Source: Albidovulum marisflavi
GTDB lineage: Bacteria; Pseudomonadota; Alphaproteobacteria; Rhodobacterales; Rhodobacteraceae
Reading direction: 5' to 3'
NCBI RefSeq assembly: GCF_025751435.1
Contig: NZ_JAOWKY010000001.1
Location: 1,534,001-1,598,000, forward strand
DNA length: 64,000 bases
The position numbers were made by a program, and so were the translations under genes. Shown here in pieces: positions 30,746 to 44,500 of the stretch. Under the pieces are notes generated by a model that did not search any database, was not told the DNA's origin, and worked only from the letters and a program-made list of their open reading frames with translations. The stretch's first letter is position 1. The number at the start of each line of letters is the position of its first letter.

Positions 30746-31870
30746 CTATCCGCCGGTCACTATCGGCGCGGGCCGATAACGCCCCGCCAGATGCGCCGGC
30801 GCCGCCGTTTCAAGGGCGGCAAGCGTTTCCAACACGCTGTCCCGCCCGTGTCGTTGCAGGGCGGCGAAGGGGCCGTAGGGGAAGTTCAGCCCCAGCCGCA
30901 TCGCGGTGTCTATGCCGTCGGGTGTCACGCCACCTTCCGCGAACAGCCAGCCCGCCTCGTTGATCAGCGTGGACTCGATCCGCTTGACGATGGCCTGGGC
31001 GTCGGCGGGAGGGGCGCCCGGCGCATCCGGAAACAGGAAGCCGCGCCCCGCCTTGCGCCCAAGCGCGCCCGATTGCACCTGCCGTATGAGAGAGTCGAAG
31101 ACATGGTAGCGTGGATGGCCATCCATCGCGGTCCACATGCCGCGCGTCGCGGCAAGGTTCACATCAGCACCGACAAGGTCGATCAGCGAAAACGGGCCAA
31201 GCCGGTAGCCCGCTGCAAGCATCGCGGCATCGATATCGGCAGGGCTTCGTCCTTCTTCCTGAAGTGCCAGGGCCTCGCCGTAATAGGGGCGGGCGCAGCG
31301 GTTGACGATGAACCCCGGTCTGTCCGGGCAGTCGATCACGGTCTTGCCGGCCGCTTCGGTTAATCTTCGGGCAAGCGCGATGGCGTCCCCGTCCGTATCG
31401 GCATGACCGGCCAGCTCGACAAGCTTCATGGCGGGGGCGGGGTTGAAGAAGTGAAGGGCAAGAAGCCTCCCGGGACGCGTCAAGCCCTGCGCGACTCCGC
31501 CGACCGGAAGCGAAGAGGTGTTGGTCGCCAGAACCGCTTCGGGCGAAAGCGCGGGTTCGATCTGCGCGAAAAGGGCGCGCTTGGCTACCATGTCCTCGAT
31601 GATGGCTTCGATCACGAGCGATGACCCCGTCAGGTCCTCGGGCGCGGCTACGATCGTCAGGCGCGACAGGGTATCATCGCGCGCCTGGGACGACAGCTTG
31701 CCCGCCTCGACCCGTTTACCCAAGGCGCTGGCCATTCGGTCGCGGGCGTTTTCGCGTGCCAAAGCCTGAGCGTCCGTCGCGACAACGCTGAAGCCCGCCG
31801 ACGCGAAGACCTGTGCGATCCCAAGTCCCATTGTGCCAAGCCCGGCGATGCCGATCCGAGGTTTCGTCAT
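30746..31870 (-). CDS. 3-hydroxyacyl-CoA dehydrogenase
   Basis: The 374-residue enzyme has an N-terminal NAD-binding Rossmann fold (IGIAGLGTMGLGIAQVFASA), the catalytic His in LLALHFFNPAPAMKLVEL near residue 140, and two C-terminal 3HCDH domains (GRSPADIDAAM... and VTPDGIDTAMRLGLNFPYGP), a layout shared with PaaH/HbdA-type enzymes. It would oxidise a 3-hydroxyacyl-CoA to the 3-oxo form. It is divergent from the aromatic-CoA operon and shares the palindrome-bearing promoter region, so it probably supplies a late ring-degradation step there. Confidence 0.9.
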   Translation of the reverse strand: MTKPRIGIAGLGTMGLGIAQVFASAGFSVVATDAQALARENARDRMASALGKRVEAGKLSSQARDDTLSRLTIVAAPEDLTGSSLVIEAIIEDMVAKRALFAQIEPALSPEAVLATNTSSLPVGGVAQGLTRPGRLLALHFFNPAPAMKLVELAGHADTDGDAIALARRLTEAAGKTVIDCPDRPGFIVNRCARPYYGEALALQEEGRSPADIDAAMLAAGYRLGPFSLIDLVGADVNLAATRGMWTAMDGHPRYHVFDSLIRQVQSGALGRKAGRGFLFPDAPGAPPADAQAIVKRIESTLINEAGWLFAEGGVTPDGIDTAMRLGLNFPYGPFAALQRHGRDSVLETLAALETAAPAHLAGRYRPAPIVTGG

Positions 31871-31920
31871 GATTGCCCCTGGCGGATACCCGAATCCATG
31901 ATGCCGCCCGCCGCCAAAAC

Positions 31921-31949
31921 TTCAAGCTAGAAATTTCAAGCTTGAAATT
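31921..31949. promoter_or_regulatory. Tandem palindromes, candidate MarR operators
   Basis: An 18-bp perfect palindrome, AATTTCAAGCTTGAAATT, occupies 31932-31949. An imperfect copy, TTCAAGCTAGAA, lies immediately before it at 31921-31932, so the centres are 14 bp apart. They sit in the middle of the 128-bp region between the divergent dehydrogenase and monooxygenase genes, in AT-rich DNA. Size and placement fit a MarR dimer site, and a MarR gene (35015) is in the operon. Confidence 0.65.
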
Positions 31950-31998
31950 AATTTGCGCCAATGCCAGTCTGATCCGCGTCTGAGGAGGGAGGCGGCAG

Positions 31999-42090: not shown

Positions 42091-42091
42091 G

Positions 42092-43072
42092 ATGGGACGC
42101 GACGCAGCCCTCAATACCGCCGTCTTTGCCGCTCTGGTCGCCGTCGCCTTTGGCGCGCATGTCTACGGGGCCCCATATGTTGTGACTCTGGCTACCAAGG
42201 CCGCGATCCTTGCACTGGCCGGTGTGGGTCTGAACCTTGCGCTTGGCTACGGGGGAATGGTGTCCTTCGGTCACGCGGTCTTTTTCGGGATCGGCGGCTA
42301 TGTCACCGGAATTTTCGCCAGCCACGCGGCGGCGGGCACCCCGGTCACCACCTTTCCCTTCACGATCGCAGGCAGCGCCGAGATGCTGGGCATCTGGCCC
42401 ATGGCGATGGTGGTGACAGCGCTGGCCGCGGTGGTCATCGGGGCGCTGTCGCTGCGCACGACGGGCGTGTATTTCATCATGGTAACGCTCGCCTTCGCGC
42501 AGATGGTCTACTACTTCGCGATCAGCTGGCGCGCCTATGGCGGCGAGGACGGGCTGTCATTCTATGTGCGCAACAGCTTTCCGGGGCTGAACACCTTTGC
42601 ACCGCTCCAGTTCTTCGCGATATCGGCCGTGCTTCTGGCGATGGCGATGGCGTTTTCCGCGCTTGTAACGCGGTCCCGCTTCGGTTTGGCGCTGCAGGCG
42701 GCGCGGGCAAACCGGCAACGGGTGATGGCCTCTGGCATCCGTCCGTTTGCGCTGCAACTGACGGCCTTCGTCCTGTCGGCGGCGATCGTCGGGCTGGCGG
42801 GCGCACTTTATGCCGACCTCAACCGCTTTGTCAGCCCCGCGATGCTGTCTTGGCACATGTCGGGCGAGATCATGGTCTTCGTCATCCTGGGCGGCGTGGG
42901 GCGGCTGGCGGGGCCGGTGGCGGGGGCGGGTGTCTTCATCTTGCTCGAGCAGCTTCTGGGCGGTGTTTCCGAATACTGGCAGGCGTTGCTGGGATTGCTG
43001 CTGCTGGCGATCGTGCTTTACGCCCCCGGCGGCATCCTGGGGCTTCTTGCCAGGGGGATGCGCCGTGTCTGA
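42092..43072 (+). CDS. ABC transporter permease, LivM type
   Basis: The 326-residue protein has about nine helices and the LivM signature LNLALGYGGMVSFGHAVFFGIGGY near residue 47, GALSLRTTGVYFIMVTLAFAQMVYYF near residue 112, and a coupling loop with GLALQAARANRQRVMASGIRP near residue 195. It forms the membrane pore together with the LivH-type permease. It starts one base after the previous stop and overlaps the next gene by 8 bp. Confidence 0.9.
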   Translation: MGRDAALNTAVFAALVAVAFGAHVYGAPYVVTLATKAAILALAGVGLNLALGYGGMVSFGHAVFFGIGGYVTGIFASHAAAGTPVTTFPFTIAGSAEMLGIWPMAMVVTALAAVVIGALSLRTTGVYFIMVTLAFAQMVYYFAISWRAYGGEDGLSFYVRNSFPGLNTFAPLQFFAISAVLLAMAMAFSALVTRSRFGLALQAARANRQRVMASGIRPFALQLTAFVLSAAIVGLAGALYADLNRFVSPAMLSWHMSGEIMVFVILGGVGRLAGPVAGAGVFILLEQLLGGVSEYWQALLGLLLLAIVLYAPGGILGLLARGMRRV

Positions 43073-43814
43073 CGTGATCCTGGACATTCGTGGCCTGGAA
43101 AAGAGCTTCGGCGCGCTCAAGGCCACCGACGGTGTCACGCTGGACCTGAGGCGCGGGGAAATCCACGCCCTGATCGGTCCGAACGGCGCGGGAAAGTCCA
43201 CGCTGATCAAGCAGATCACCGGGGAAATCCGGCAGGACGCGGGAACGGTCAGCTTCGAAGGGCAGGCGATCGATGCGCTGGATCCCGCGGCGCGCGCGCG
43301 GCTGGGTCTGGCGCGGAGCTTTCAGGTCTCTTCGATCGTGCCCGAATTCACGGCGCTGGAAAACACCATGCTTGCGGTCCTGGGGGCGGGCGGGGGTGTC
43401 TTCCGCTTTCTTCGTCCCGCACTGGCCGATCGCGGGCTGACGGATCCGGCTCGATTCCATCTGGAGCAGGCCGGGCTCGCCCTGCGCGAAAGGGTGCCGG
43501 CCAGCGCCCTGTCGCATGGCGAGCGCCGCAGGCTTGAGATCGCGATGGCGCTTGCCATGCGCCCGCGTGCCTTTCTGCTGGATGAGCCGATGGCCGGCAT
43601 GGGGGCCGAGGGCGCAAAGGACCTGACCGTGATTCTGTCCGACCTGCGGGGCGAGGCGCCAATCCTGCTGGTCGAACACGACATGGACGCGGTCTTTGCC
43701 CTGGCTGACCGCATCTCGGTTCTGGTCTACGGCCGCATCATCGCGACGGGCAGCGTCGAGGAAATCCGCGCCAACCCCGAGGTGCGCCGCACCTATCTGG
43801 GGGAAGACGCATGA
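43065..43814 (+). CDS. ABC transporter ATP-binding protein, LivG type
   Basis: The 249-residue ATPase has Walker A GPNGAGKST near residue 37, a signature region SALSHGERRRLEIAMAL near residue 146 and Walker B FLLDEPMAGMG near residue 167. The start is GTG at 43065 (MSDVILDIRGLEKSFG), chosen because the ATPase domain begins there; it overlaps the LivM-type stop by 8 bp. It drives the importer with the LivF-type ATPase. Confidence 0.92.
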   Translation: MSDVILDIRGLEKSFGALKATDGVTLDLRRGEIHALIGPNGAGKSTLIKQITGEIRQDAGTVSFEGQAIDALDPAARARLGLARSFQVSSIVPEFTALENTMLAVLGAGGGVFRFLRPALADRGLTDPARFHLEQAGLALRERVPASALSHGERRRLEIAMALAMRPRAFLLDEPMAGMGAEGAKDLTVILSDLRGEAPILLVEHDMDAVFALADRISVLVYGRIIATGSVEEIRANPEVRRTYLGEDA

Positions 43815-44500
43815 GCAGGCTGCTGGAGCTTGAGGCCGTGACGGCCGCCTACGGACCGGTTCAGGCGCTGTTCGGCGTCGGCCTTGGCGTGGACGAGGCC
43901 GAGGTCGTGGCGCTGATGGGCCGCAACGGCATGGGCAAGACGACGACGGTGCGCACGATCTGCCGCATGATGCCCGCGACCGGGGGGCGCATCGTATTCG
44001 CCGGTGTCGATCTTCTGCGCCTTCCGTCGCACCGCGCGGCACAATTGGGTATCGGCCTGGTGCCCGAAGGGCGCCGCACCTTCGCTCCGCTGACGGTGGC
44101 CGAAAACCTGGCTGTCGCGGCGCGGCCGGGGGCGTGGGACCTTGGGCGCGTCACGGCGCTTTTTCCCCGTCTGGGCGAGCGCTTGGGTCAGACCGCCCGT
44201 ACCCTTTCGGGCGGCGAGCAGCAGATGCTGGCGATCGCTAGGGCGCTGATGACCAATCCCCGCCTTCTGATTCTGGACGAGGCGACCGAGGGTCTGGCGC
44301 CCTCGGTCCGGCACGAGATCTGGGCGGCGATCCGTGCCTTGAAGCAGCAGGGCCTTTCGATCCTCCTGATCGACAAGTCGCTGAAAGAAATCTCGGCCGT
44401 CGCGGACCGCGCGGTGATCCTTGAGCGAGGAGAGACGGTCTGGTCGGGCGCCATGGCCGACGTCACGACCCAGATCGCGGACCGGCATCTTGGGGTCTGA
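43811..44500 (+). CDS. ABC transporter ATP-binding protein, LivF type
   Basis: The 229-residue ATPase has Walker A GRNGMGKTT near residue 37, the signature LSGGEQQMLAIARAL near residue 135 and Walker B LLILDEATEGLAP near residue 154. The EATEGLAP sequence is typical of LivF. It overlaps the LivG-type gene by ATGA and is the last gene of the aromatic-CoA/transport operon. A strong hairpin follows at 44503-44534. Confidence 0.93.
   Translation: MSRLLELEAVTAAYGPVQALFGVGLGVDEAEVVALMGRNGMGKTTTVRTICRMMPATGGRIVFAGVDLLRLPSHRAAQLGIGLVPEGRRTFAPLTVAENLAVAARPGAWDLGRVTALFPRLGERLGQTARTLSGGEQQMLAIARALMTNPRLLILDEATEGLAPSVRHEIWAAIRALKQQGLSILLIDKSLKEISAVADRAVILERGETVWSGAMADVTTQIADRHLGV

Follow-up and report, generated by a model that had tools for sequence, protein, structure and literature searches.

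Which aromatic acid is degraded by the gene cluster at positions 30746-44500 of the window, and by which protein would the nitrogen of an amino-substituted ring be released? The window is the whole stretch of 64,000 nucleotides analysed here (contig C2:1534001-1598000 of the 3.8-Mb genome of Albidovulum marisflavi). The cluster consists of 14 genes, all intact, one on the minus strand followed by 13 on the plus strand (Table 1), among them those for an aryl-CoA ligase, a Rid-family protein and a fusion of an FAD monooxygenase with an Old Yellow Enzyme (OYE). A preliminary description made from the sequence alone had read it as a complete cluster for uptake and CoA-dependent breakdown, probably of anthranilate. 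Our analysis indicates that anthranilate is very probably the substrate, that it would be activated by the ligase and attacked by the fusion, and that a Rid protein in which the catalytic Arg is exchanged for Met, here called Rid-M, tracks this type of fusion from genome to genome.

Residues 1-358 of the fusion match VioD (3c4a, E 8.7e-54), residues 393-752 match an OYE of the XenA type, a xenobiotic reductase (5cpl, E 3.2e-94), and the complete protein scores 1247 bits against NF006101, for which the cut-off is 1078. The fused architecture proposed in the preliminary description is therefore genuine, with an N-terminal FAD monooxygenase and a C-terminal OYE as in 2-aminobenzoyl-CoA monooxygenase/reductase of the AbmA type. 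The OYE residues K497, H565, H568, Y570 and Q656 are all present. The His-x-x-His-x-Tyr motif of XenA, which has a catalytic role, is matched in the alignment by H565 (its first His), H568 and Y570. Judged by its residues, the OYE site is compatible with ring reduction. Overall identity of the fusion was rejected as a guide to the substrate, as the gentisate-linked protein of Cupriavidus (55%) is nearer to that of the window than the anthranilate-type protein of Arthrobacter (49%).

The competing possibility is that the fusion is a plain salicylyl-CoA 5-hydroxylase, whose product gentisyl-CoA would be hydrolysed to gentisate, to be split by gentisate dioxygenase. The NCBI name of NF006101 says exactly this, as had been noted beforehand, and a subset of the family does adjoin genes for a thioesterase, a gentisate-dioxygenase-like cupin and an FAH hydrolase. 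Five fusions are linked to the cupin and FAH genes in this way (loci L042, L210, L212, L215 and L256). At the thresholds used, genes for short-chain dehydrogenase/reductase (SDR), crotonase, acyl-CoA dehydrogenase and Rid were not found beside them, L215 having a 30% crotonase match. In a FastTree tree of 181 fusions the five need two origins, forced by well supported branches; L215 is a long branch of unsure placement.

Comparison of these five with 40 kynurenine-linked fusions revealed four differing columns, all in the OYE half: C449A, K497R, H565Q and Q656E. Among the 176 other fusions, that of the window included, K497 and H565 are each present in 176, Q656 in 175 and the more variable C449 in 162. 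Because these columns were picked after the fact, 55 further, previously unused fusions (59 minus 4 repeats) were inspected. Two new gentisate-linked members carry A/R/Q/E, and the other 53 all have H565, with R497 in one of them (L299). Altogether, Q565 occurs in 7/7 gentisate-linked fusions and in 0/229 others, all 229 of which, the window included, have His, some being the same species in two collections. Thirty Rhodobacteraceae fusion loci, which overlap the other sets, have likewise all kept K497, H565 and Q656.

For the window the salicylate reading was rejected on neighbours and OYE residues, and we consider it highly improbable. The fusion has H565, K497 and Q656, not the Q565/R497/E656 set of the gentisate-linked members. 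No gentisate dioxygenase or FAH hydrolase is among the 14 genes in Pfam and NCBIfam scans, as the preliminary description had maintained for the dioxygenase; the rest of the genome was not searched for a gentisate dioxygenase. None of 80 named relatives showed a gentisate-dioxygenase-like cupin gene close to the fusion (tblastn, single query). These relatives are the 80 closest among the matches listed, and 49 of them have at least 5 kb upstream and at least 9 kb downstream of the fusion (long-flank relatives). What accompanies the window type instead are beta-oxidation genes, Rid-M and kynurenine genes. The name salicylyl-CoA 5-hydroxylase thus probably fits only a small, gentisate-linked part of NF006101, and even for that part salicylate is a presumed substrate. 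Its members in Cupriavidus taiwanensis (L042) and Caballeronia SBC1 (L256) share the fused architecture with the window but differ in the OYE half (H565Q, K497R, Q656E) and in their neighbours (cupin, FAH and thioesterase genes; Rid not found). If true, the His565/Gln565 switch would separate true reductases from plain hydroxylases under one family name and might help annotators to distinguish pathways for anthranilate from those for salicylate, which at present bear the same name. On plasmid pSBC1_4 of Caballeronia sp. SBC1 (L256, 3190-13452), the gentisate-type cluster is preceded by porin and indolepyruvate ferredoxin oxidoreductase genes, an unexplained aryl-pyruvate link.

The other type of fusion is associated with tryptophan breakdown. 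At E <= 1e-100 the fusion is encoded in 35 of 100 genomes of the family Rhodobacteraceae; this set, like the others used, is a sample. The genome search scores some first-look candidates only, so that absences are uncertain, and it has overlooked at least one fusion, since genome G673, listed as a non-carrier, carries one (54% identity) beside Rid-M at L378. In 80 of the 100 genomes, tryptophan 2,3-dioxygenase (TDO) was present in 30/32 carriers versus 10/48 non-carriers (Fisher p 6e-11, shared descent ignored). Kynureninase (31/32 carriers, 38/48 non-carriers) is a weak discriminating partner, being common in non-carriers too. The genome of the window itself encodes TDO at C5:38015-38818 and kynureninase at C5:39526-40650, about 0.7 kb apart. 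TDO adjoins the fusion in Ruegeria pomeroyi DSS-3, and both genes are near it in Aminobacter MSH1. Among the 49 long-flank relatives TDO is near the fusion in 18, kynureninase in 11 and one or both in 18; these neighbour counts (tblastn, one query per gene, at least 35% identity) are lower bounds, since the stretches end at cut edges. In a Phaeobacter study, tryptophan was reportedly broken down through kynurenine and then 2-aminobenzoate, "as in A. evansii".

The ligase has anthranilate-CoA ligase 4wv3 as its best PDB match (E 1.7e-83) and is 54% identical to the ligase of Arthrobacter plasmid pAL1, which showed anthranilate-CoA ligase activity when assayed in extracts of E. coli (PMC3534580). 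The host, Arthrobacter Rue61a, is reported to grow on anthranilate and not on salicylate or 5-hydroxyanthranilate (PMC3534580). Several points weigh against the anthranilate reading. The lead over the benzoate-CoA ligase 2v7b (E 1.2e-79) is small, the ligase scores 352.7 against TIGR02262, just below the cut-off of 375.25, and aryl-CoA ligases of this kind are reported to accept benzoate too (PMC8388817). Given that acceptance and the small PDB margin, the ligase sequence is not decisive as proof of the substrate. Two fusion carriers (G026 and G037) lack TDO, and the family name itself speaks for salicylate. Overall, the linkage to TDO and kynureninase genes, the co-occurrence of TDO, the missing cupin, the OYE site and the similarity of the ligase support the original proposal. 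We have high confidence in the joint prediction that anthranilate is the substrate, the ligase activates it, and the fusion acts as monooxygenase/reductase.

Anthranilate might, on the other hand, be only one entry, the importer bringing in another compound that yields anthranilate or 2-aminobenzoyl-CoA, for instance during breakdown of quinoline or indole-type compounds. No more than a generic amino-acid/urea class can be assigned to the binding protein, and its gene is near the fusion in 23 of the 49 long-flank relatives, so uptake may vary; moreover, the Arthrobacter plasmid cluster is reported to serve quinaldine breakdown (PMC3534580). The partners that are shared are tryptophan-kynurenine genes, and we regard this alternative as unlikely.

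The Rid gene had been taken in the preliminary description for RidA, fitting an amino-substituted ring. That argument proved stronger than stated, while the protein is not a canonical RidA. Met107 aligns gap-free with the Arg of the canonical PAR motif (phmmer, PDB 3vcz); the catalytic, carboxylate-binding Arg105 of RidA is thus absent, and Y17 and E123 are present. A canonical RidA role was therefore rejected. Among 112 cluster-linked Rid copies this position is Met in 110 and Asn in one (the second Rid copy in L179), and one copy has no residue there, i.e. Met is found in 110/111 alignable copies. The Tyr17 position is Tyr in 110 and Phe in two; Glu123, of the VEIE motif, is kept in 111/111 copies having the residue, and position 125 holds Glu in 94 copies and Gln in 17. 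The seven other Rid proteins of the same genome have Arg in three cases (two in a PAR motif) and Met in none. It is therefore Met, and not the absence of Arg, that is special. In missing Arg, Rid-M agrees with the groups Rid4-Rid7, a likeness on that trait alone.

A search model was built from ten Met-type proteins and run over the same 80 family genomes. At E <= 1e-25 it matched exactly 32/32 fusion carriers and 0/48 others, and 30/30 fetched copies had Met. Outside the family, Rid-M scored at least 162 bits in 57/59 carriers, again with Met in 30/30 fetched copies. The two remaining carriers, G444 and G391, reached 64 and 46 bits at best, and the gentisate-linked L215 and L212 were the only fusions found in them. 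Twenty-one hand-picked non-carriers gave at most 61 bits. In a test set beforehand, Rid-M was found in 38/40 carriers with H565, in 0/2 more gentisate-only genomes and in 2/28 listed non-carriers. One of these last two is G673, which does carry the fusion; the other is G937, a bin of 66% completeness, where Rid-M adjoins thioesterase and ligase genes at the end of a contig. These data show that Rid-M tracks fusions with an intact OYE site. It does so also at a distance: where it is separate from the fusion, Rid-M has as neighbours kynureninase, TDO or the block of SDR, crotonase, dehydrogenase and ligase genes (L381, L382, L383, L386 and L387) or a thioesterase gene (L384), or it stands alone (L380). 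Locus L381 (G055 C1:1886000-1905900) has SDR, MarR, crotonase, acyl-CoA dehydrogenase, ligase, TDO, kynureninase and Rid-M together, with a diverged fusion (47%) elsewhere in the genome. In a Rid tree with few columns and long branches, Rid-M requires two label changes and may have a single origin.

The Arg of RidA is reported to form a salt bridge with the substrate carboxylate and to be required for imine hydrolysis (PMC4433059). The predicted substrate of Rid-M is a CoA thioester; its carboxyl group would be bound to CoA, which could explain why the Arg that grips a free carboxylate was lost while Tyr and Glu remain. We therefore propose, as an idea that we favour slightly, that Rid-M is a dedicated enamine deaminase of a CoA thioester, the dearomatised product of the 2-aminobenzoyl-CoA monooxygenase/reductase. 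In Arthrobacter, a C7H8O4-CoA ester was reported only in anthranilate-grown cells among the carbon sources tested, and cyclohexanedione-carboxyl-CoA was suggested by the authors (PMC3534580). That compound would be the ester expected from enamine hydrolysis, the predicted product of Rid-M.

There are also arguments against this role. The C7H8O4-CoA ester may be an artefact, since formic acid was used for extraction and the enamine ester is reportedly unstable below pH 5 (PMC3534580). Rid-M was not found in two of the 40 carriers with H565, namely G736, 96% complete in about 350 contigs, and G939, of 64% completeness, and no Rid gene lies within the stretch in 24/123 long-flank loci without gentisate dioxygenase. 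Rid-M could alternatively be a chaperone, or a damage-control protein dealing with a by-product. For Rid4-7 proteins, which lack the Arg, imine hydrolysis is reported to be unlikely, the one Rid7 tested having been inactive, and Rid4-Rid7 "remain mysterious" (PMC4433059). Set against this are the co-inheritance of Rid-M with the fusion even when unlinked, its absence from the four gentisate-only genomes tested, and the retention of Tyr17 and Glu123 with loss of the carboxylate-binding Arg alone; we rate a chaperone or damage-control function as possible, though somewhat doubtful. If true, the deaminase proposal would assign a function to one Rid group of the mysterious, Arg-less sort and fill a gap, the deamination step, in the aerobic breakdown of anthranilate. 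Candidate enzymes follow from the conserved gene set, and one simple Rid-M assay would address the question of nitrogen loss. No literature link between a Rid protein and 2-aminobenzoyl-CoA was found in a search that was mostly at title level, covered few subscription journals and did not combine YjgF, L-PSP or translation inhibitor with 2-aminobenzoate. Rid genes are predicted in benzoate regulons (PMC6449761).

The proposed pathway would then run as follows. Anthranilate would be imported by LivHMGF with the binding protein, or be supplied from tryptophan by TDO and kynureninase, and the ligase, like its relative with reported activity, would form 2-aminobenzoyl-CoA. The fusion would hydroxylate C5 and its OYE half would reduce the ring to 2-amino-5-oxocyclohex-1-ene-1-carbonyl-CoA. 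This reaction is reported for A. evansii (PMC4539516, PMC8388817); in the window the conversion is predicted, with support from the OYE residues. Hydrolysis of the enamine by Rid-M would give 2,5-dioxocyclohexane-carbonyl-CoA and ammonia. The deaminated compound would be a cyclic beta-keto thioester and would suit the crotonase-fold enzyme as a substrate whose ring is opened by hydrolysis; the best solved relative of this enzyme (3g64) is an unassigned "putative enoyl-CoA hydratase". SDR, acyl-CoA dehydrogenase and 3-hydroxyacyl-CoA dehydrogenase could finish by beta-oxidation-like steps, in whatever order, with a thiolase from elsewhere, and the thioesterase might release CoA from dead-end esters.

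All the genes named in the preliminary description are present, intact and in the order given (Pfam, NCBIfam). The word "complete" could not be upheld: there is no thiolase among the 14 genes, and the ring-opening step has no assigned enzyme. That most genes overlap by ATGA holds for the catabolic genes (5/7 junctions) and not for all plus-strand junctions (6/12, letters checked). Among the 49 long-flank relatives, the numbers with a given gene near the fusion are as follows: SDR (48), MarR (49), crotonase (49), acyl-CoA dehydrogenase (47), ligase (42), Rid (33), thioesterase (26) and the divergent 3-hydroxyacyl-CoA dehydrogenase (8). From these counts the conserved core is fusion-SDR-MarR-crotonase-acyl-CoA dehydrogenase-ligase, and the importer, thioesterase and 3-hydroxyacyl-CoA dehydrogenase are variable. 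The identical 14-gene set and order is found on plasmid 1 of Paracoccus denitrificans PD1222 (PDEN_RS25275-RS25340, L039), with a fusion 82% identical; an additional alpha/beta hydrolase gene follows livF there. Plasmid pSmeAK21a of Sinorhizobium meliloti (L258, 9001-19325), typed as conjugative, carries an anthranilate-type cluster ending in a thiolase gene, which is lacking from the window cluster.

An 18-bp perfect palindrome, AATTTCAAGCTTGAAATT, ends 49 bases before the fusion start codon, and its 12-bp core, TTCAAGCTTGAA, is present a single time in the window. Of 177 sequences upstream of the fusion, that of the window among them, 22 contain the exact core and 105 contain it with at most two mismatches, where mononucleotide shuffles predict 0 and about 1.2. 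The core was not found upstream of the fusion in Comamonas (L046) or Deinococcus (L043), with 4 mismatches in both. Because the core recurs in this position and MarR is near the fusion in all long-flank relatives, the palindrome is probably the MarR operator; MarR would repress both divergent promoters there until a CoA ester appears.

A pathway of this cluster type is already known from Azoarcus evansii and Arthrobacter pAL1. The abm operon of Azoarcus (Aromatoleum) evansii is reported to serve aerobic 2-aminobenzoate metabolism (PMC4539516, PMC8388817). On plasmid pAL1 of Arthrobacter sp. Rue61a (NC_009453, L041) an anthranilate-CoA ligase, a fusion 49% identical, a Rid with Met and a thioesterase are encoded as in the window; it differs in a PaaX regulator and FAH-type and cupin genes, and no SDR, crotonase or acyl-CoA dehydrogenase is annotated beside the fusion. 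As reportedly described by Schuehle et al. in 2001, the abm operon has eight genes, against 14 with a five-gene importer in the window; three genes are for beta-oxidation, and the products also include a regulator of the MarR type, an ABC binding protein and a protein of the Rid family named "translation inhibitor". In the window, too, an aryl-CoA ligase and the fusion are encoded together with beta-oxidation enzymes, MarR, a Rid protein and transport proteins. What our sequence comparison would add is the TDO co-occurrence, the OYE split of the family, the non-canonical Rid and the candidate MarR operator.

Gene identities in Table 1 come from Pfam and NCBIfam scans, those of LivM and LivG from similarity and gene order only.

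Table 1. Features of the cluster, with positions in the window.
Feature	Position	Strand	Basis or remark
3-hydroxyacyl-CoA dehydrogenase, divergent, 374 aa	30746..31870	-	PF02737/PF00725
18-bp perfect palindrome, probable MarR operator	31932..31949	.	between divergent genes
Predicted 2-aminobenzoyl-CoA monooxygenase/reductase (FAD monooxygenase-OYE fusion), 760 aa	31999..34281	+	NF006101, domain matches, OYE residues
SDR dehydrogenase, 246 aa, ATGA overlap	34278..35018	+	PF00106/PF13561
MarR-family regulator, 143 aa, ATGA overlap	35015..35446	+	PF12802/PF01047
Crotonase-fold enzyme, candidate ring-opening hydrolase or hydratase, 270 aa, ATGA overlap	35443..36255	+	NF006107, 478 bits, cut-off 330
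Acyl-CoA dehydrogenase, 377 aa	36314..37447	+	PF00441/PF02770/PF02771
4HBT-type thioesterase, 138 aa, ATGA overlap	37444..37860	+	PF03061
Rid-family protein Rid-M (our label), Met at catalytic Arg position, 143 aa	37850..38281	+	PF01042
Aryl-CoA ligase (AMP-binding), predicted anthranilate-CoA ligase, 540 aa, ATGA overlap	38278..39900	+	best PDB match 4wv3
Periplasmic substrate-binding protein, 380 aa	39985..41127	+	PF13458
LivH-type permease, 303 aa	41179..42090	+	PF02653
LivM-type permease, 326 aa	42092..43072	+	76% to annotated permease of L039 (P. denitrificans PD1222)
LivG-type ATPase, 249 aa, GTG start	43065..43814	+	80% to annotated ABC ATPase of L039
LivF-type ATPase, 229 aa, ATGA overlap	43811..44500	+	PF00005

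Upstream of the cluster, a gene for a sulfatase-modifying factor of the FGE type (26351-27319, minus strand) lies directly downstream of a sulfatase gene (27343-28908, minus strand), and the pair is accompanied by a Crp/Fnr-type regulator gene (28901-29620, minus strand). A carbon-nitrogen hydrolase gene (PF00795; 29860-30744, plus strand, start chosen by us) is tail to tail with the minus-strand dehydrogenase gene of the cluster and ends one base short of it; its product may be an N-carbamoylputrescine amidase. On the other side a MATE-family exporter gene (44535-45914, minus strand) is convergent with livF. The window also contains genes for tRNA-Ala(cgc) at 23108-23183 and tRNA-Leu(tag) at 51905-51989, both on the plus strand.

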